Assembly: GCF_000413435.1 (NCBI RefSeq)
Contig: NZ_KE340327.1
Coordinates: 1-64,000, forward strand
DNA length: 64,000 nucleotides
Direction: 5' to 3'
DNA from: Campylobacter ureolyticus ACS-301-V-Sch3b
Lineage (GTDB): Bacteria > Campylobacterota > Campylobacteria > Campylobacterales > Campylobacteraceae
A program made the translations under genes and the position numbers. A model generated the notes under the pieces. That model worked only from the letters and a program-made list of their open reading frames with translations, was not told the origin of the DNA and did not search any database. Positions 47,983 through 56,521 of the stretch are shown piece after piece. Within the stretch, counting starts at the first letter, position 1; every line of letters starts with the position of its first letter.

Positions 47983-48861
47983 CTAAATTGACTTTAAATA
48001 CTCACTTAGTAAGTTTTTTAAATACTCATTAAGGTCATTTGGGGCAATGACTTTGATAAATGGGATAAATTGTAAGATAAATGGCACGATTTCATAGTAG
48101 TTTGAGACTTTTAAATGCATTTCGCTCTCATCTTGCTTGTGGATGATTGCTTGTGTTTTTAGTGGAATTCTTTCTAAAAATTTTAAAATAGAGTTATCAA
48201 CCAAAAGTTCAACTATAAAACCTTGGCTATCTATATCAAACCAGATTGAGTTGGCATTTTTAAGTTTTACCTCGATATCTTTTGTATTTATAAATTTTTC
48301 ATTTAAAATAGTTAAGTTTTTTATACTTTTTAGGTGAAACTTTTTAAATTTATCATCTTTATTTGCATCCAAACAAAGCAGATACCAAAAACCATCAAAA
48401 TTTGCAATTTTAAGCGGTTTGACTCTGAATTTATAGTCATTGTAAGTAAAGTTTATAATCTCTTTATTCTCAATTGCCAAAGCCAAACTTTTAAAAAACC
48501 CCAGGTCGTTGCTATCTAAATTTTCGTTTTTTAGCTGTATAAAAAAAGCATTTTTATACTCTTTATTGATCTCTTTAAATAGACCTTTTGATTTTTGATA
48601 AATTTCATACCCTTGATTTTGGGTGAAGTTTTTTACAAGGCTAAAAACAACATCATTTTCATCTTTTTTTAGATCTGTTATGCTATAAATTTTATTGTTT
48701 AGCCTTATATTTATTCCATCATCTTTTAAAATTTTTATATATCTTGCGATAGTTCTTTTATCTTTATTAAATATTTTGCATAAATAATCCTCGCTAACTG
48801 GCGATTTTGTAAGTAGCTCATAAATTTTTGCTACTTTTTCTAAAGTTTCTTGCGTTGCCAT
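47983..48861 (-). CDS. WYL-domain transcriptional regulator
   Basis: A 292-residue regulator. The N-terminal winged helix (ETLEKVAKIYELLTKSPVSE, then LCKIFNKDKRTIARYIKILK near 27-46) binds DNA. The WYL domain follows (NFTYNDYKFRVKPLKIANFD near 138-157, with FWYLLCLD), then a WCX-type C-terminal part. WYL regulators such as BrxR and CapW often control phage-defence genes and sense nucleic acids or nucleotides. It is divergent from the double-AAA+ gene with an 82-bp shared promoter region containing inverted repeats, its likely operator. Confidence 0.88.
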   Translation of the reverse strand: MATQETLEKVAKIYELLTKSPVSEDYLCKIFNKDKRTIARYIKILKDDGINIRLNNKIYSITDLKKDENDVVFSLVKNFTQNQGYEIYQKSKGLFKEINKEYKNAFFIQLKNENLDSNDLGFFKSLALAIENKEIINFTYNDYKFRVKPLKIANFDGFWYLLCLDANKDDKFKKFHLKSIKNLTILNEKFINTKDIEVKLKNANSIWFDIDSQGFIVELLVDNSILKFLERIPLKTQAIIHKQDESEMHLKVSNYYEIVPFILQFIPFIKVIAPNDLNEYLKNLLSEYLKSI

Positions 48862-48882
48862 TTTTATCCTTTTTAAGATGAT

Positions 48883-48914
48883 GACAAAAAAATGTCTTTG
48901 AAAGACTTTATAAT
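48883..48914. promoter_or_regulatory. Candidate WYL operator and promoter of the AAA+ gene
   Basis: GACA-AAAAAA-TGTC at 48883-48896 is followed by the overlapping perfect palindrome GTCTTT-G-AAAGAC (48894-48906) and then TATAAT at 48909-48914. The repeats fill the -35 to -10 space of the AAA+ promoter, where a bound repressor would block polymerase. A near-identical 14-mer lies in the macro-gene promoter at 55132-55145. AAGGAGGG precedes the ATG at 48944. Confidence 0.7.
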
Positions 48915-48943
48915 TTTATCATAAATTTATCAAGGAGGGCTTT

Positions 48944-50917
48944 ATGAGTTATTATCAAAAGATTATAAGATTAATGGAACTTAGAGTAGCTGTTCATTTG
49001 GATACTATTTTAAAACTCATGGATGGTAGAGTGGCTATTTTGTATGAGTATTTGGATAAAGATATAAAGCTTGAAAAAGATCAAATTCCTCTGATTTTAA
49101 ACAAACTAAAAGAAAAGCTTGATGTTTATGAAAAAGAGTTTAAGATAGACAAAGACGATATTTTGGAAAAAAATCTAAATTTCTTGCAAAATACCCTAAA
49201 CCTTACAAGCACGCAAGTAAATATCATTAGAATGGGCGCTGTTGTCTTAAATTATAGCTCTTATATATTGGATCAAATGACATCATCTTATAAAAGCGAG
49301 TTAGAAATTTACACCTTTATCTCCAGGATATTAAACGAGCCAATAGAAAAGATAAAAGAGGCATTTGAGTTAAAAAACTCTTTTAGATATATGGTAGAGC
49401 TTTGCGGCGGCTCCAGGTACCGTGCAAATATAATCGACACAAAGAATGATTTTTTAAAATATCTGCTTGTTGAAAACGGCATATATAAATTTATCAAATA
49501 CTACACTTATGAGTTATCTTCTAGTAATCTTAAATTTAATGATTTTGACCATATAAAGCAAGATTTAGCTGTTTTAATCCCATATTTAAAATACTCTATT
49601 GAAAATGAGCTTAAAGGGGTAAATATTTTGTTTTATGGAAAGCCAGGTGTTGGAAAAAGCGAAATTTGCTCACTAATAGCAAACAAATGCAATGTTTTGG
49701 GGCTTGGTATAAAATCATATTTCGATGATTATGACATTGTTAATTCTATGGCAAGGATAGCAAGTATAGATTTTATATCAAATTTCGTTAGCAAAGAGAC
49801 AATTTTTATCTACGATGAGGCTGAGGATATTTTCAATCTTAACTCCAACGACAAACAAGACAATAAAGCTTTTGTAAACTACGCTCTTGAAAACAATAAA
49901 AGAGTTGTTATTTATATCACAAATGATGTTGGATGTATCGATGAGGCGATTTTACGAAGATTTGACTTCATAATGGAGTTTAAAGATATCCCTAAAAACC
50001 AAAAACTCAAAATCATCAATAAATACTCCAAAAATATGGTAGATGATAAAACAAAAGAGCTTTTTAGCAGCTCACCCGATCTACAACCAGCTACTATTGC
50101 CAAAGTTAGCAAAGTCATAGAAACTCTAAATTTAAAAAATGCTTCAAATGAGTTTAAGCTTCTTACAAACAATACTCTCAATGCTTTTGGGTATGGCGGC
50201 GTGGAGTTTAAAAAAGAGATAAAATACGCTCCAAAAGAGTATGATATCTCACTTTTAAACTCTGATTATGATCTTGAAAACCTAGCCAATAAAGTAAAAA
50301 ATGATGTAAGAATTTGTCTTTATGGGCCAAGTGGAAGTGGTAAAAGTGCTTATGCTTTTTATTTGGCTGATAAGCTTAAAAAAGAGCTTATTATAAAGAC
50401 TGGAAGTGATCTGTTGTCACCTTATATCGGCGAGAATGAGAGAAATATAAAAAATGCTTTTTTACTGGCTAAGCAAAAAGATGCGATTTTGCTAATCGAT
50501 GAGATAGAGGGCTTTTTATTTAGTAGAAACAAAGCTGCTAGAAGTTGGGAGCTAACTATGGTAAATGAGTTTTTAACCTCAATGCAAAGTTTTGATGGCA
50601 TTTTTATATCAACTTCAAATTTATTTGAGCTAATAGACAGCGCGGTTTTAAGAAGATTTGATTTTATGGTGGAGTTAAAGCCTTTAAATTTCATGCAAGC
50701 TAAAGATATCTTTCAAAATAGATGTGAAAATTTAGGCTTTAAGCCAAAAGAGGAGCTTTTAAACTCATTTTTGGAGCTAAGCAATATAACAATTGGTGAT
50801 TTTGAATCAGTAAAAAGAAGTATGAAATTTTTAGATGTAAATAGCGCAGATGAGTATTTTGACCTCTTAAAACAGAGATGTTTATTAAAGACAAAAGCTA
50901 ACTTTCAAAATGTATAA
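48944..50917 (+). CDS. Double-AAA+ ATPase of unknown function
   Basis: A 657-residue cytosolic protein. A helical N-terminal region (1-220) precedes two AAA+ modules. The first has Walker A GKPGVGKSE near 231, Walker B TIFIYDEAED near 287 and RRFDFIMEF near 334. The second has GPSGSGKSA near 463, ILLIDEIEGF near 512, sensor-1 ISTSN and RRFDFMVEL near 567. The second is like CDC48/FtsH-type ATPases, suggesting remodelling of a protein partner. The N-terminal pattern belongs to a widespread unstudied family as far as I recall. Its G+C is visibly higher than that of the two DUF262 genes that follow after 33 bp. Target unknown. Confidence 0.82.
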   Translation: MSYYQKIIRLMELRVAVHLDTILKLMDGRVAILYEYLDKDIKLEKDQIPLILNKLKEKLDVYEKEFKIDKDDILEKNLNFLQNTLNLTSTQVNIIRMGAVVLNYSSYILDQMTSSYKSELEIYTFISRILNEPIEKIKEAFELKNSFRYMVELCGGSRYRANIIDTKNDFLKYLLVENGIYKFIKYYTYELSSSNLKFNDFDHIKQDLAVLIPYLKYSIENELKGVNILFYGKPGVGKSEICSLIANKCNVLGLGIKSYFDDYDIVNSMARIASIDFISNFVSKETIFIYDEAEDIFNLNSNDKQDNKAFVNYALENNKRVVIYITNDVGCIDEAILRRFDFIMEFKDIPKNQKLKIINKYSKNMVDDKTKELFSSSPDLQPATIAKVSKVIETLNLKNASNEFKLLTNNTLNAFGYGGVEFKKEIKYAPKEYDISLLNSDYDLENLANKVKNDVRICLYGPSGSGKSAYAFYLADKLKKELIIKTGSDLLSPYIGENERNIKNAFLLAKQKDAILLIDEIEGFLFSRNKAARSWELTMVNEFLTSMQSFDGIFISTSNLFELIDSAVLRRFDFMVELKPLNFMQAKDIFQNRCENLGFKPKEELLNSFLELSNITIGDFESVKRSMKFLDVNSADEYFDLLKQRCLLKTKANFQNV

Positions 50918-50950
50918 TTACAAATAAATTTTAAATTTAAGGAGAGTGGG

Positions 50951-52213
50951 ATGGATAATATCTTAAATAACATAGGCGAAATAAGCATGGAAGATATTTA
51001 TAGTAAAAATATAAAAATTCCATTTTATCAAAGACCATATAAATGGAAACTTGAAAATGTAAGATATCTTTGTGAAGATATAAAAGATGGTTTTTTGAAA
51101 AATAATAAATATCTTTTAGGAAATATAATTTTACATGAGGAAAATGATGAATTAAATATCGTTGATGGGCAGCAACGCCTTACTACAATAGCTTTGATAT
51201 TAAAAAGTTTGAAGAAAAAGATAAATTTACTAGAAAATATAAACATAAACTCAAACGAGGCTTTAAAAAGAAATTATAGTTTTATAGAAAGCTATTTTTC
51301 AAATTTTGAAAGAAAAGGTGATCTTATAGAATTTATCTTAAATAACCTAGTGGTGACCTATATAAAAACTAAAGACCTAGATGAGGCTTTTAAGTTTTTT
51401 GATACACAAAATTCTCGTGGTAAAAAGCTCGATGATGTTGATTTGCTAAAAAATCACCATTTTATGCATTTGGGTGATATGGATATTTCCATACAAAAGC
51501 AGATTGCAAAAGAGTGGAAAAAGTATGAAAATATGCGTGTAGATTCATATCATTGGAGTATGAGAGAATTATTAAAATGTGTTATAAATGATCTTTATAT
51601 TTTAAGACTAATGTTTTATGATAGGAATTTTACTTTTGGCACTTGGATAAATCGTCAGAATTTTGTTTTAGATGAGTTTAAAACCCAGATAAAGGGCAAA
51701 AATTTAAATTTACAAGATTTTAAATTTAGCTCAAACATAGTCGGCGGAATGATGTTTTTTGACTATACTTTCAAGTATGCCCGTATTTATGAAATATTAA
51801 AACAAAAAGCTGATTTTTCCACTAAATGGCTTTTAAATCAAGCAATGATGATGCTTTTACTAGTTTATGTGGATAAATTCGGCTTTGATGAAAATTTTGA
51901 AAAATTTTATGAAAATGTTTTTGTTAGGTTGTTTGTAGTGCTTGCTAGGTATGGCAGAATTGATGTTAATTCTATAGAGCTGGTCTATATTACAAAAGGT
52001 GTTTTTAATAAAATTTTAAGTAGTGATTATAGTTTTTATCTAATAGAAAGACTAGAGTATGATTTGAAATTTGATTTTTTCAAATTTTATGAGATAAACG
52101 AATATCAAGAAAATATAGATAATTTACTAAAAAATAAAACCTTTTTAAAAGATAAAGATTTTGCAATAAAAAATATTGAAAGAATTTCTTTTAATAACAT
52201 AAAAATTAAATAA
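50951..52213 (+). CDS. DUF262 protein (GmrSD N-domain type), no HNH motif
   Basis: A 420-residue protein with the DUF262 ParB/Srx-like fold motifs: IPFYQRPYKW (about 24-33), LLGNIIL near 56, NIVDGQQRLTTIALI near 70-84 and FKFFDTQNSRGKKLDDVDLL near 146-165. In GmrSD and related type IV restriction enzymes this domain binds and hydrolyses nucleotides and steers DNA cutting. The C-terminal part lacks the DUF1524 histidines. AAGGAGAGTGGG precedes the ATG. It sits between the AAA+ ATPase and a second DUF262 protein that does carry the nuclease motif. Confidence 0.85.
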   Translation: MDNILNNIGEISMEDIYSKNIKIPFYQRPYKWKLENVRYLCEDIKDGFLKNNKYLLGNIILHEENDELNIVDGQQRLTTIALILKSLKKKINLLENININSNEALKRNYSFIESYFSNFERKGDLIEFILNNLVVTYIKTKDLDEAFKFFDTQNSRGKKLDDVDLLKNHHFMHLGDMDISIQKQIAKEWKKYENMRVDSYHWSMRELLKCVINDLYILRLMFYDRNFTFGTWINRQNFVLDEFKTQIKGKNLNLQDFKFSSNIVGGMMFFDYTFKYARIYEILKQKADFSTKWLLNQAMMMLLLVYVDKFGFDENFEKFYENVFVRLFVVLARYGRIDVNSIELVYITKGVFNKILSSDYSFYLIERLEYDLKFDFFKFYEINEYQENIDNLLKNKTFLKDKDFAIKNIERISFNNIKIK

Positions 52214-52223
52214 AGGATAAAAA

Positions 52224-53879
52224 ATGAGTGAATTAATAAAAAAATATAATTTAGACAATTTAGCAGAAAAAAAATTTAACTTTAAAATACCATTTTTTCA
52301 AAGAGAGTATTCTTGGGATGATGGAGATGTTGAAAATTTGATAAATGATGCTTTAGGACACTCTTTAGATGAAAATGATGTTTCAAATTTAGACGATGAA
52401 AGTTCTTACTATATAGGAAATATTGTTGTTAAAGAGCAAAAAGATGGCACACTTATGCTAATAGATGGACAGCAACGTCTTATGACTCTGTATTTGCTAG
52501 CTAAATTTACTGACTCTGACTTGGAGTTTTATAAAATTGGATATTTGGTAGATGATGAGGATAATGAAAATTTAAAAAATATTGATTTTAAAAACCTAAA
52601 TTTCAAAATGCAAAGTTTAAACGAAATTTGCAAATTTATATTTAGACAATATAAACAAGATAGTGATAAAGCACAAATACAAAAAATGCTTAAAAAAGTT
52701 TATTTTACAATGACTACATTAGATGAAAATATGGATGAAAAACACTATTTTGAAGCTATAAATTTAAATAAAATACAACTTAGAAAAAGTGATATTTTAA
52801 AAGCCCTGTTTTTAAGTAAAGCCGATGAGTGCAAGAGAGAAAATTTAGCAAAAATTTGGGAAAAATGCGAGGATATGGAGCATTATTATGATGATGAAAA
52901 ATTAAATAATATTGGCTCAATTGAGCAAGCCTCAATAAATGATATTTTAGCTTCTACTGATGCAGATGAAAAAGAAAATCAAAAAAATAGCCCAGATAAT
53001 AGTGAGATTTTAGAAGTAAAAAGCATAGTTGATTTTGAAGAGTTTTTGGCAATTGTAGCTAAAATTTTAAATGAAAAAATGCCACTTGACCCTGAAAATC
53101 TTATAAAAAACTTTAAAGAATATATATTTAATGAAGAAAAATTAAATAAGAATTTTATTACCGAACTTGAAAAATATAGAAAACTTTTTGATAAGTATGT
53201 TTTTAAAAGAGATTTGGAAAACAAATATATCCAAAAATTTGGAGATAAAAAATTATTAATGATACAACTTTTATTTGAAGTTCAAAGCAGCAATGAGTGG
53301 CTAGTAAAATATCTAGAAAAGTGCGAAACTTTGGGTGATGTAGACAAACATATTGGTAAATTGGAAGAAATAGACAAAGAAAGAATGCAAGCTTTGATAA
53401 AAGATAAAAACTTAGAAGATTTATTAGATCAAGGAACTGACACGCCTCACTATTTTTTCTACAAGCTTGACTATCTTTTGTGGAAAAAATTAGGCGAAGA
53501 GATAGAAAATAAAAGCAAATCTAATTTTTGGGAAGATGTTAAAAACAGACAAAACATTTATGATAGATTTTACATAACAAAAACTGGTTCGGTTGAGCAT
53601 ATACAGCCACAAAGTAAAGAAAAAGAGCATTATTTTGATGATGAAAAAATAAACTATTTTGGAAATTTAGCTTTGATTACTAGTAGTAGAAATTCATCTT
53701 TGGGAAATAAAAGTGTTGGGATGAAAAAAGAAGCCATAAAAGAGTGGATATATAAAGGTGAATCTATCCAAAGCCTTAAAATGCTTTTAGCTTTAGAAAA
53801 ATATCCTGATTGGAATTGTAAAAATTCATTTGAACATAGAGAAAAAATGATTGAATTGCTAAAAGATAGCCTAAATTAG
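52224..53879 (+). CDS. DUF262-DUF1524 protein, GmrSD-like nuclease
   Basis: A 551-residue protein joining an N-terminal DUF262 domain (IPFFQREYSWDDGDV near 22-36, YIGNIVV near 70, LIDGQQRLMTLYLL near 85-98, FEAINLNKIQLRKSDILKA near 176-194) to a C-terminal DUF1524 His-Me/HNH region: SVEHIQPQSKE near 456-466 and YFGNLALITSSRNSSLGNKS near 477-496. This is the layout of modification-dependent or phosphorothioate-dependent restriction nucleases (GmrSD, SspE). A long acidic and helical middle region separates them. It begins 10 bp after the first DUF262 gene, so the two are co-transcribed. A paired function is likely; the substrate is unknown. Confidence 0.88.
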   Translation: MSELIKKYNLDNLAEKKFNFKIPFFQREYSWDDGDVENLINDALGHSLDENDVSNLDDESSYYIGNIVVKEQKDGTLMLIDGQQRLMTLYLLAKFTDSDLEFYKIGYLVDDEDNENLKNIDFKNLNFKMQSLNEICKFIFRQYKQDSDKAQIQKMLKKVYFTMTTLDENMDEKHYFEAINLNKIQLRKSDILKALFLSKADECKRENLAKIWEKCEDMEHYYDDEKLNNIGSIEQASINDILASTDADEKENQKNSPDNSEILEVKSIVDFEEFLAIVAKILNEKMPLDPENLIKNFKEYIFNEEKLNKNFITELEKYRKLFDKYVFKRDLENKYIQKFGDKKLLMIQLLFEVQSSNEWLVKYLEKCETLGDVDKHIGKLEEIDKERMQALIKDKNLEDLLDQGTDTPHYFFYKLDYLLWKKLGEEIENKSKSNFWEDVKNRQNIYDRFYITKTGSVEHIQPQSKEKEHYFDDEKINYFGNLALITSSRNSSLGNKSVGMKKEAIKEWIYKGESIQSLKMLLALEKYPDWNCKNSFEHREKMIELLKDSLN

Positions 53880-53892
53880 CTACAAATTGAAA

Positions 53893-53923
53893 TAGTCTAT
53901 CCTAGTTTTTCTAGGATAGACTA
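53893..53923. terminator. Strong bidirectional terminator
   Basis: TAGTCTATCCTAG and CTAGGATAGACTA form a perfect 13-bp stem with a TTTTT loop, between the convergent DUF262-DUF1524 gene (stop at 53879) and the 207-residue gene (stop at 53928). Confidence 0.85.
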
Positions 53924-53927
53924 AATT

Positions 53928-54551
53928 TCACCTCTCCAAATACTTTAAAAAATCAGACTCCAACCTTCTTTGTAAAATTTGTAAAGTTATATTAGAGCTC
54001 ATTTGGCACACTTGTGAGACTAAGTATCTACTTTCTTTTAGCATTTCAGCAAGAAGTCCTATCTCTTTTTGGCATAGCCAATGAAGATCTGTTTGATATT
54101 GCCTATGTTTTTTTGCAATATCTCTATTTCTAAAATCTTTTGGATTTTTAGGAACTCTAGGGGTTAAATTTATAAATTTATAAGACTCTTTTAAATCAAA
54201 ATAATCATCATATAGATCATTTGTATTGTAAAATCTTTTACGATTTTCATCATTCATCTCCTCTCTCCAGTTTTCATTATGTGCATATTCTATCTTTAGA
54301 TGAGCAAGTGTTATTGGTATAGAGATAGATAAAAACAAGATCATTTTAGGATTTATAAACTCCACCAACTTTTCATCATCAAAAAGCCCATCAAGACTTA
54401 CTAAATGACTTACATCATTTTTTACAATCTCATCATAAATTTTTATTTTTAACTCATAAATTTCTTTATAAGTTCTGAAATTTAGAGCATTATTTGCTTT
54501 TGCCCACTCATGCATATCTGAAATAGAACGAAATTTAGCTAAATTTTGCAT
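53928..54551 (-). CDS. Unrecognised 207-residue protein, partner of macro-domain gene
   Basis: A mostly helical cytosolic protein starting MQNLAKFRSISDMHEWAK. One hydrophobic stretch (MILFLSISIPITLAHLKIEY near 70-89) could be a buried helix or a weak membrane segment. A cluster of charged and tyrosine residues follows (NTNDLYDDYFDLKESYKFIN near 110-129), and three cysteines lie in the last third. I recognise no family; it does not show DarT or RyR motifs. It directly follows the macro-domain gene (overlap of one base), so the two must be co-expressed. A toxin-antitoxin or defence pair is possible but unproven. Confidence 0.6.
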   Translation of the reverse strand: MQNLAKFRSISDMHEWAKANNALNFRTYKEIYELKIKIYDEIVKNDVSHLVSLDGLFDDEKLVEFINPKMILFLSISIPITLAHLKIEYAHNENWREEMNDENRKRFYNTNDLYDDYFDLKESYKFINLTPRVPKNPKDFRNRDIAKKHRQYQTDLHWLCQKEIGLLAEMLKESRYLVSQVCQMSSNITLQILQRRLESDFLKYLER

Positions 54552-55093
54552 TATATATCCTTTTTAAAAATTTCATTTATTAGATCAAAATCCTCTTTTG
54601 TATATCCATATATCACAACTCTACACTTTATATTTGCACTATTGTTTTTAATAAAATGTTTTTTATACAAATTTATCACCTCTTTTTTACTAAGCCCACC
54701 AATACCGCACCCAATGAGAGGAATTCCAAGCCTAATGTCAAATTTGCCATATCTTAAAATTTCATTATCAATATTGTTTAGAATATTTTTAATAACATTT
54801 AAATTTGGATATTTTGGCAGATTTTTAAATGTATAGTTTAAAACAGCTGCGTGAAAAATATGAGTGAAATTTTCATTATTTGATATGGTTTTTATAACTT
54901 CACCTGGCTTTAAAGGGCTATTTTTAAGCTTTTCTTGCATCAAACATTCAAGCTCTCCACCGCCACATCTACAAAAAAATGCCCTTGAAACACCACTACC
55001 AAGTAGCATTAGAGTATTTGATGGATTTACTAAAATATCAGCTTTTTCATCAAGTAAATCACCTTGTTTTATGCTAACTTCATAAGAGATCAT
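54551..55093 (-). CDS. Macro-domain protein, copy 1 (full length)
   Basis: A 180-residue single macro domain. ADILVNPSNTLMLLGSGVSR (about 18-37) is the ADP-ribose-binding loop 1, GGGELECL near 44 follows, and IPLIGCGIGGLSKKEV near 124-139 is the phosphate loop. Such domains bind or remove ADP-ribose or related NAD metabolites and are common antitoxins and defence partners. AAAAAGGAGGG precedes the ATG. Its promoter carries the same inverted repeat as the AAA+ gene. The first 167 residues are repeated identically by the copy at 55890-56408. Confidence 0.85.
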   Translation of the reverse strand: MISYEVSIKQGDLLDEKADILVNPSNTLMLLGSGVSRAFFCRCGGGELECLMQEKLKNSPLKPGEVIKTISNNENFTHIFHAAVLNYTFKNLPKYPNLNVIKNILNNIDNEILRYGKFDIRLGIPLIGCGIGGLSKKEVINLYKKHFIKNNSANIKCRVVIYGYTKEDFDLINEIFKKDI

Positions 55094-55149
55094 TTAACCC
55101 TCCTTTTTGGTCTATGATAGATGATTTTTAAGACATTTTTATGTCTTTT
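54580..55149. repeat. 570-bp direct repeat, copy 1 (macro gene and promoter)
   Basis: Read by eye against 55895-56464, the two segments have no gaps and one mismatch, C54586 versus T55901. Identity ends just past the promoter palindrome, at a T versus G. The constant offset is 1,315 bp. Confidence 0.95.
55130..55147. promoter_or_regulatory. Inverted repeat in macro-gene promoter
   Basis: AAGACA-TTTTTA-TGTCTT. Read on the minus strand its core is GACA-TAAAAA-TGTC, one base different from the 14-mer before the AAA+ gene. TATCAT on the minus strand, about 15 bp further towards the macro gene, may be the -10 box. It is a probable site for the WYL regulator. Confidence 0.65.
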
Positions 55150-55251
55150 TGCAAGAGGGGTAAAAACAGCAGAATTTGAGTTTATACAACTATCATCTTT
55201 CATTTTAAAATTATCCTTTTATCTATCCGAATTTCAATAAAAAATTTAATT

Positions 55252-55290: not shown

Positions 55291-55842
55291 ATGAACAGAT
55301 ATAAATTTTTTCGTCAGTTTCATATCTATTTGAGTCTATTTTTTCTACCAGTTGCTTTGCTTTATGCAGTTAGTGGGCTTGCTTATATCTTTGGCGCCAA
55401 TCAAGATTTTATGGCTACAAAAAACAGCTATAAAACAAATTTGGTTTTGCAAAAAGGAGCGGAACAAGAGGCGGTTTTGCAATTTTTAAAAGAGCAAAAT
55501 ATAAGAATTCCAAGCGATGTAGGGCTCAAAAAAGACAAAAAGCAAGGTGGGCTTACTATGGGAACTGCAAGTTATAGCATAAACGTCAAGCAGGCAAAAG
55601 ATGAGCTTGTTGTAACTACTACGAAAAGAAGTTTTTTGGGCAATATCATCATGCTTCACAAAGACAAAACTGGCTGGTATTTTAGGATTTTATCAATAAG
55701 TTTTGGCTTTTCTTTGATGCTTTTTTATCTCTCTGGTTTGATGATAACTTTCTTTGCCAATAAAAAAGAGCGAAAAGCACAGCTCTTAGTTATTGCTGCT
55801 GGAGTTTTTGCATGTGTGGTTTTGGGCTATATTAGTCTATAG
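55291..55842 (+). CDS. PepSY-associated membrane protein, possible iron-uptake accessory
   Basis: A 183-residue protein with an N-terminal helix (about 14-36, starting FRQFHIYLSLFFLPVALLYA), a periplasmic domain, and two C-terminal helices (about 131-150 and 160-181). The order RQ-HIYLS, LYAVSGL and LHKDKTGWYFRILSISFGF matches the PepSY-TM family, whose members often sit with siderophore or iron-uptake genes. Histidines near 11 and 123 could bind haem. It lies alone between the two copies of the macro repeat, and its base composition is richer in G and C than its flanks. Confidence 0.75.
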   Translation: MNRYKFFRQFHIYLSLFFLPVALLYAVSGLAYIFGANQDFMATKNSYKTNLVLQKGAEQEAVLQFLKEQNIRIPSDVGLKKDKKQGGLTMGTASYSINVKQAKDELVVTTTKRSFLGNIIMLHKDKTGWYFRILSISFGFSLMLFYLSGLMITFFANKKERKAQLLVIAAGVFACVVLGYISL

Positions 55843-55889
55843 TTTTTAAAATAAGTCATATTGCAATAGTGCAAAATAAAAAGTATCTT

Positions 55890-56408
55890 TTAAATTAGAT
55901 TAAAATCCTCTTTTGTATATCCATATATCACAACTCTACACTTTATATTTGCACTATTGTTTTTAATAAAATGTTTTTTATACAAATTTATCACCTCTTT
56001 TTTACTAAGCCCACCAATACCGCACCCAATGAGAGGAATTCCAAGCCTAATGTCAAATTTGCCATATCTTAAAATTTCATTATCAATATTGTTTAGAATA
56101 TTTTTAATAACATTTAAATTTGGATATTTTGGCAGATTTTTAAATGTATAGTTTAAAACAGCTGCGTGAAAAATATGAGTGAAATTTTCATTATTTGATA
56201 TGGTTTTTATAACTTCACCTGGCTTTAAAGGGCTATTTTTAAGCTTTTCTTGCATCAAACATTCAAGCTCTCCACCGCCACATCTACAAAAAAATGCCCT
56301 TGAAACACCACTACCAAGTAGCATTAGAGTATTTGATGGATTTACTAAAATATCAGCTTTTTCATCAAGTAAATCACCTTGTTTTATGCTAACTTCATAA
56401 GAGATCAT
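55890..56408 (-). CDS. Macro-domain protein, copy 2 (last residues lost)
   Basis: A 172-residue product identical to copy 1 up to residue 167, then D to N at the repeat edge and LI before a stop made by the junction; the last eight residues (NEIFKKDI in copy 1) are gone. The macro fold and both ligand loops remain. There is no 207-residue partner gene behind it. It keeps the full promoter and palindrome, so it may be expressed under the same control. It may be functional or a recent dead copy. Confidence 0.75.
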   Translation of the reverse strand: MISYEVSIKQGDLLDEKADILVNPSNTLMLLGSGVSRAFFCRCGGGELECLMQEKLKNSPLKPGEVIKTISNNENFTHIFHAAVLNYTFKNLPKYPNLNVIKNILNNIDNEILRYGKFDIRLGIPLIGCGIGGLSKKEVINLYKKHFIKNNSANIKCRVVIYGYTKEDFNLI

Positions 56409-56464
56409 TTAACCCTCCTTTTTGGTCTATGATAGATGATTTTTAAGACATTTTTATGTCTTTT
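55895..56464. repeat. 570-bp direct repeat, copy 2
   Basis: Same orientation as 54580-55149 and nearly identical. Left of it, sequence is unrelated to the 207-residue gene; right of it lies the promoter region of the EamA transporter. Confidence 0.95.
56445..56462. promoter_or_regulatory. Inverted repeat in second macro promoter
   Basis: An exact duplicate of the site at 55130-55147, giving the putative regulator a third binding site in the island. It lies 60 bp before the divergent EamA gene and might affect it too. Confidence 0.55.
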
Positions 56465-56521
56465 GTTTTTATTTAATTTAACTTTTTATAATTATGCGAA
56501 AATTTTAAATTTGGGAAAAAT

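Follow-up and report, generated by a model that had tools for sequence, protein, structure and literature searches.

TgvAB, reported in 2024 from the Vibrio cholerae island VPI-2, is a two-protein type IV restriction system of the GmrSD family. It restricts phages with hypermodified DNA and needs both of its proteins; a count of its homologues gave 1,341 (PMC11411939). Its two genes protected Escherichia coli without an ATPase of the kind considered below (PMC11411939). That DUF262 genes often neighbour other GmrSD homologues had been noted in 2015 (PMC4619093). A more recent idea is that larger defence operons harbour embedded genes; PMC11411939 names type I restriction-modification (RM) and Hma operons as hosts and mentions RloF, a DUF262 gene situated between hsdR and hsdS in Campylobacter jejuni.

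The stretch analyzed here (the window) comprises 64,000 nucleotides of Campylobacter ureolyticus ACS-301-V-Sch3b (contig NZ_KE340327.1, positions 1 to 64,000). It carries a gene for a WYL-domain regulator, divergent from that of a tandem AAA+ ATPase, which is followed by two DUF262 genes, designated DUF262-a and DUF262-b (Table 1). An original prediction, made from the sequence alone, had grouped these four open reading frames (ORFs) as a defence island. Their coordinates and domains were confirmed, as was the arrangement of a WYL gene divergent from a defence-type operon, with 82 base pairs (bp) between the starts of the WYL and ATPase genes. Comparison with related genomes indicates that the genes are part of an insert that is probably a WYL-linked defence cassette, the restriction effector of which occupies an exchangeable slot.

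The DUF262 pair and the insert that carries it

Judged by layout, the DUF262 pair belongs to the TgvAB kind, named in 2024. As in Vibrio, two adjacent genes encode a DUF262 protein without DUF1524 followed by one with DUF262 and DUF1524, and the motif DGQQR is present in both proteins (PMC11411939), here at position 72 of DUF262-a and position 81 of DUF262-b. The original prediction of a DUF262/HNH pair with HNH in one protein only thus held, PF07510 being detected in DUF262-b, whereas GmrSD_C was not found by Pfam in DUF262-a. The His-Me finger of DUF262-b would consist of H459, N481 and N490, the asparagines having been assigned by analogy with PMC11411939. Both pairs are embedded in a larger operon, which is a type I RM operon in Vibrio, whereas the pair of the window stands behind the ATPase; the host operon differs accordingly, and the likeness is one of layout, not of sequence comparison with VC1767/VC1766 (PMC11411939). 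Gaps of 33 bp between the ATPase gene and DUF262-a and of 10 bp between DUF262-a and DUF262-b suggest that the three genes form one operon.

DUF7834 in the first protein and DUF1524 in the second were found by Pfam in all five pairs checked (the window, L146, L147, L152 and L158), and such a DUF262 pair, in the same order, is present in 16 of 398 Campylobacterales genomes, as counted by eye. In L155, L156 and L159, the pair is located within or beside addAB-like genes (between both in L159), a label taken from their PDDEXK_1 and UvrD domains; this is as expected if the pair is autonomous cargo. The best PADLOC models for the pair were the single-chain GmrSD relatives HEC-06, Orf5 and SspE. With the single-chain enzymes GmrSD, BrxU, SspE and HEC-06, the pair shares the GmrSD_N (DUF262) and GmrSD_C (HNH) domains, but it consists of two proteins, one of which has no nuclease domain. 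DUF262-b alone holds both GmrSD domains, yet it is paired with DUF262-a. Assignment to SspE was rejected, as none of the six insert genes is an SspABCD modification gene. The other DUF262 systems Dazbog, Menshen and PD-T4-2 were set aside because they are without DUF1524 according to a review (PMC10952713). Pairs were classed by the Pfam nuclease domain because separate hidden Markov models (HMMs) for DUF262-a and DUF262-b merged on iteration. The original prediction had known of no named system with this set of genes, which stands for the host cluster, of which no description was found in the open-access literature searched, and fails for the pair, which has the layout described for TgvAB (PMC11411939). 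A second class of DUF262 pair, of ∼570–615 and 695–799 amino acids (aa), is found behind the same ATPase family at L190:8823-12622 and L197:12529-16609, and probably also at L029:14298-18522; its match to DUF1524 was weak at most in the pairs tested (L190 and L197).

All six genes of the insert recur in identical order and at the identical site in the sister genome G454. Protein identities between the two genomes are 94% for the WYL regulator, 94% for the ATPase, 89% for DUF262-a, 82% for DUF262-b, 89% for a 207-aa orphan and 92% for a macro-domain protein; glmU, which flanks the insert on one side, is 96% identical at the DNA level. On the other side, the insert is flanked by an EamA transporter gene, to which glmU is directly adjacent in three of the eight other relatives examined (L178, L179 and L182). 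Among the remaining five, a single gene, itself of the EamA type, separates glmU from EamA in L181; in L180, EamA is missing from the site and glmU adjoins the gene that follows in the window; glmU has other neighbours in L184; and the contigs of L183 and L185 end close to it. The block in G454 together with the empty sites therefore defines the insert as 47983-55093, which shows that the end originally predicted, 53879, was too early and that the orphan and macro genes had been missed. The arrangement of the four genes is not due to chance, as the block recurs at the same site in G454 and is missing from three relatives, and the insert is real, complete and of the defence type. Neither an integrase domain nor a tRNA was found in it. 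Little pointed to a phage-borne origin: viral contigs yielded one related ATPase locus (L210), without any labelled partner, and 17 phage records gave partial ATPase matches, none covering 80% of the query as the search tool counts it.

Table 1. Features of the insert and its immediate surroundings in the window.
Feature	Position	Strand	Evidence and remarks
WYL regulator, 292 aa, HTH_11 + WYL + WCX, divergent from ATPase	47983..48861	-	PF13280 E 9e-8; G454 orthologue 94% identical
Palindrome GACAAAAAAATGTC, candidate WYL operator, in 82-bp divergent promoter region	48883..48896	.	Match to GACAN6TGTC; kept in G454
Tandem AAA+ ATPase, Cdc48/Rix7-like; 657 aa; two intact AAA+ modules after a helical N domain	48944..50917	+	PF00004 E 7e-34, two stretches
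DUF262-a, TgvA-like in layout; 420 aa; GmrSD_N and DUF7834, but no nuclease domain found	50951..52213	+	PF03235 E 7e-31; PF25202 E 7e-13
DUF262-b, 551 aa, GmrSD_N + GmrSD_C (DUF1524/HNH), TgvB-like layout	52224..53879	+	PF03235 E 2e-25; PF07510 E 2e-12
Terminator-like hairpin, 13 pairs, between convergent operons	53893..53923	-	Called for minus strand; region: 7 sites vs 2.3 expected from shuffles
Orphan, 207 aa, overlaps macro gene by one base	53928..54551	-	No Pfam match above cut-off
Macro-domain protein, 180 aa	54551..55093	-	Homologues beside ATPase in L052, 2 kilobases (kb) away in L006
Second palindrome copy, candidate operator of minus-strand operon	55132..55145	.	38 bp before macro start; one mismatch in G454
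Strain-specific extra insertion, PepSY_TM gene + 3′-cut macro duplicate	55291..56408	.	Not part of the system; absent from G454

The ATPase and the probable slot behind it

The ATPase has Walker A motifs at positions 232 (GKPGVGKS) and 461 (GPSGSGKS). When 17 sequences, that of the window included, were aligned, both Walker lysines, both DE pairs and both RR pairs proved invariant. Closest among solved structures by sequence are VAT and p97-type enzymes. The predicted model (predicted local distance difference test, pLDDT, 82; predicted template-modelling score 0.58) gave Rix7, Cdc48 and VAT as top fold matches and shows an N domain of ∼200 residues that is mainly helical. Two tandem AAA+ modules are common to the protein and to Cdc48/p97, VAT and Rix7, from which it differs by another N domain and an identity of 15–20%. 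Superposition of the whole chains was loose (template-modelling score ∼0.35, root-mean-square deviation ∼12); therefore, it is the modules that match, not the assembly. The top PADLOC match was IetA of the IetAS system (123 bits), with which an AAA+ module is shared, whereas the ATPase of the window is a tandem AAA+ protein with a helical N domain. Identity with IetAS was rejected, the NCBIfam IetA equivalog scoring 101 bits against a cut-off of 510 and no protease gene being present among the insert genes. Within the 398 Campylobacterales genomes, 32 contain the ATPase (E 1e-40); the family also occurs in Proteobacteria and on some plasmids.

Comparison of closely related loci (83–91% DNA identity) shows that the place behind the ATPase holds differing cargo in different genomes: none, a single GmrSD gene, a GmrSD pair, McrBC or helicase genes. 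In L206, the ATPase gene is followed, after 164 bp, by a gene for a DUF2779 protein, which has a PD-(D/E)XK/Cas4-like N part. In L205, both genes are 90–91% identical to those of L206 at the DNA level and a 565-aa GmrSD is encoded between them. L207 has an ATPase 89–90% identical, a GmrSD gene without a DNA match to that of L205 and no adjoining DUF2779 gene, and in L209 (4700-13046), McrB-like and McrC genes lie on the opposite strand between a broken ATPase gene (83%) and DUF2779. In L029 and L038, a common block of 88% identity takes in ATPase and DUF2779 as well as almost the whole of WYL. Past this block, two DUF262 genes follow in L029 and three genes in L038, one unknown, one weakly PLD-like and one helicase-like. 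Common to L018 and L197 are ATPase-FtsZ-like (79%) and DUF2779 (86%) segments, the intervening genes being mostly unrelated, with one matching piece of 211 bp. When DUF262 linkage was mapped onto a FastTree phylogeny of the ATPase, on which the window's own protein has a long branch and an unsure placement, 13 changes were required, compared with a mean of 13.3 after shuffling. Thus, the linkage reflects repeated gain or loss and not one clade, and a single origin is not supported.

The neighbour counts are based on 101 non-redundant loci, which were left of 119 ATPase rows after reduction at 90% identity. L029 was restored manually and is included in the counts of 14, 23, 29 and 102 given here, and L038 and L054 were both retained despite 99.98% DNA identity. 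Excluded were ATPase fragments shorter than 500 aa, such as L143 (435 aa, with DUF262 downstream on the same strand) and the broken L154 and L209, in which DUF262 is not so placed, and weak DUF262 HMM matches (below 100 bits, without DGQQR), such as those of L034/L193 and L189, which are located upstream. Starts in distant loci are rough because ORFs were called longest-first.

Of the 101 loci, 52 have a WYL gene no more than 5 kb from the ATPase (76 either show one or extend 5 kb to each side), and DUF2779 was found in 29 of 102. Of 23 DUF2779 genes downstream on the same strand, 13 stand directly next to the ATPase and 10 are separated from it by one to four genes (counted by eye). The intervening genes include PDC-S26, a candidate system of PADLOC, in L012, one for a type II-like enzyme in L040 (L188 is a contig equal in length), and PcfJ, FtsZ-like and GmrSD genes. 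When downstream neighbours were tallied by Pfam (146 of 175; the 29 removed manually were for the most part very long or of third rank, and 149 upstream neighbours stood outside the tally), WYL occurred 24 times, DUF2779 14 times and GmrSD_N 4 times. ATPase and WYL, often with the DUF2779 nuclease, thus constitute a recurrent cluster. DUF262 genes, which belong to several subtypes, were present within 10 kb in 13 of 101 loci, or 14 with L029, and in all 14 they were located downstream on the same strand; 274 of 762 ORFs (36%; at least 200 aa, within 6 kb) showed this placement as a baseline. Sir2 (7/18), FtsZ-like (5/12) and WYL (22/57) genes followed no such rule, whereas DUF2779 (22/28) and PcfJ (4/5) were biased likewise.

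The searches for the pair and for the ATPase each covered 398 Campylobacterales genomes and were taken as one draw, since the genome handles agree. Eight of the 16 genomes with a pair also contain the ATPase, compared with 32 of 398 overall (Fisher p 6e-6; here and below, p-values treat loci as independent), which supports an association between ATPase and DUF262 genes that exceeds chance. In four of them (G065, G175, G217 and G395), the pair and a full-length ATPase lie within ∼6 kb; in G001 (C. concisus UNSWCS), G018 and G021, they are 14–21 kb apart on the same contig, and the ATPase of G076 is broken. Co-occurrence of ATPase and DUF262 pairs, proposed as a check in the original prediction, was seen at the level of genomes; a full-length ATPase was present in the examined stretch for only 4 of the 16 pairs, with the stretch of L146 stopping at a contig edge. 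Conversely, when loci were drawn by the ATPase alone, 8 of 33 in Campylobacterales, several on short contigs, had DUF262 downstream on the same strand (33 loci from 35 places; L191 holds two, and a fragment in G001 was left out).

Regulation and readings of the locus

In architecture and setting, the WYL regulator resembles BrxR, a WYL repressor with two repeat boxes inside one island (PMC9122601). Its HTH + WYL + WCX architecture (the WCX match being 0.1 bit below the cut-off), the adjacent defence genes and the inverted repeats in promoters are those of the BrxR type. Regulators of this family stand beside restriction genes, type IV included, and have inverted-repeat operators, two within one island (PMC9122601); the repeats in the window are candidate counterparts. 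The window differs in the operator itself and in that the insert is without BREX genes. GACA-N6-TGTC matches three times in the 64 kb, compared with 0.26 expected, and 1 of 100 shuffles reached three; the third match is a duplicate of the copy in the macro promoter, and therefore two independent sites remain. The palindrome could, as a candidate WYL operator, link both operons.

For the probable reading stated above, of a WYL-linked cassette with an exchangeable effector slot, the following mechanism is proposed. A WYL dimer would bind GACA-N6-TGTC at both promoters and repress the operons until it is released by a signal. The nuclease pair would act as in TgvAB, the DUF262/NTPase domains sensing modified foreign DNA and the HNH domain of DUF262-b cutting it, and both DUF262 proteins would be needed. 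The ATPase may be a protein-unfolding motor serving the host cluster, either as a defence layer of its own or as a general remodeller, rather than a dedicated loader of the nuclease pair.

Several observations weigh against this reading. DUF2779 is absent from the window, and the picture of a slot is therefore carried over from relatives; furthermore, the whole block is 82–94% conserved between the window and G454 and is therefore a fixed unit between these two genomes. The bias of DUF2779 and PcfJ implies that the ATPase heads operons in general. Among redundant or broken loci, the strand rule has exceptions, with DUF262 upstream on the same strand in L164, convergent to a broken ATPase gene in L154 and on the opposite strand of a broken ATPase gene in L209; when these are counted, 14 of 17 DUF262 loci are downstream on the same strand (p 1.2e-4, loci taken as independent). 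The proteobacterial loci are the best 80 of 418, chosen by similarity. As for the operator, the motif was picked by eye before counting, its conservation was judged on one relative, G454, and there the second palindrome is imperfect, with 2.25 one-mismatch sites expected by chance per 19 kb.

A wider proposal can be put forward tentatively, and it is rather less likely to be true than not to be: in Campylobacterota and Proteobacteria, ATPase and WYL regulator, often with DUF2779, might form a defence chassis not described before, its Cdc48-like motor serving interchangeable type IV effectors (single GmrSD proteins, GmrSD pairs of two classes and McrBC), so that motor and regulator stay while specificity is swapped. 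No paper treating DUF262, WYL and AAA ATPase together was found in the open-access literature searched, and no account of an ATPase-WYL-DUF2779 cluster was found there under DUF2779, judging by titles and the openings of abstracts; as far as this literature goes, neither the host cluster nor the slot seems to have been described. The window locus and its relatives point to a host cluster other than those named for embedded defence genes, one composed of a protein-unfolding-type motor and a WYL regulator. Natural pairs with and without cargo at ∼90% DNA identity offer a testable case of restriction-specificity exchange under a fixed regulator, and they raise the question of why a Cdc48-like motor accompanies modification-dependent nucleases.

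In its strict form, the original prediction makes the WYL regulator, the ATPase and the two DUF262 proteins a single obligate system, with the AAA+ motor loading or remodelling the nuclease pair. The gaps of 33 and 10 bp and the genome-level association (p 6e-6) fit this, as does the order ATPase, DUF262-a, DUF262-b, with all three genes on the same strand, which is seen in the window, G454, L147, L148, L152 and L158 (L147 and L148 each have two intervening genes, L152 has four). On the other hand, the examined stretch holds no full-length ATPase for 12 of the 16 pairs (for three of them, one lies at a distance of 14–21 kb, and the stretch of L146 stops at a contig edge). A same-strand DUF262 gene downstream is missing from 25 of 33 ATPase loci, some on short contigs; DUF262-linked ATPases do not cluster on the tree but are scattered; and TgvAB acts without such an ATPase (PMC11411939). 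An obligate four-gene machine is thus improbable, and although the ATPase may have a dedicated part in loading the nuclease pair, this reading is not preferred. About equally improbable is plain clustering in a defence island, with independent systems gathering at hotspots in incidental order: the distances of 14–21 kb in G001, G018 and G021, in regions that also contain WYL and Sir2 genes, and the 122 Pfam families among 146 downstream neighbours would suit it, but not the placement of DUF262 in 14 of 14 loci against a baseline of 36%, the operon spacing and the exchange of cargo between conserved flanks.

The macro-domain pair and other neighbours

The orphan encoded next to the macro-domain protein had seven homologues in the protein database, of which the two named are from Campylobacter ureolyticus and an uncultured Campylobacter; the best one, from C. 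ureolyticus, is 96% identical. Its fold prediction was unusable (pLDDT 45). That macro and orphan form a toxin-antitoxin-like pair, in which the macro protein neutralizes an ADP-ribosylating or other toxin and which guards or adds to the cassette, is unlikely. The one-base overlap of the two genes, a PADLOC match of the macro domain to DarG (E 1e-9), the proximity of macro homologues to the ATPase in L006 and L052 and the palindrome common to the macro promoter and the WYL/ATPase region are consistent with such a pair. Against it, and against DarTG in particular, the macro domain scored 37 bits where the DarG equivalog cut-off is 250, neither DarT nor another toxin was matched, the orphan has no significant domain match, few homologues and no usable fold, and no relative of it adjoins the macro gene in L142.

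The extra insertion near the macro gene is accompanied by a direct repeat (54579-55157 and 55894-56472, spacing 1315 bp), so that the PepSY_TM gene lies between two macro copies, the second of which retains the EamA junction as in G454. The duplication looks like a segment that was inserted by homology within macro.

Several further genes recur around the ATPase. A gene for an FtsZ/tubulin-like GTPase, recognized by a custom-built HMM (the L002 protein alone was put to Pfam individually), is a neighbour in 12 of 102 loci, for example, L018, L187, L197, L002, L041 and L068. Sir2-family genes occur near WYL or ATPase in 18 of 102 loci (e.g., L142, L195 and L206), and L150 holds two copies that are much alike. 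In L003, L038, L054 and L002, a recurring set behind ATPase/WYL encodes an unknown protein of 411–475 aa, one with weak likeness to PLD and an SNF2/DEAD-type helicase; the set may be a separate defence operon.

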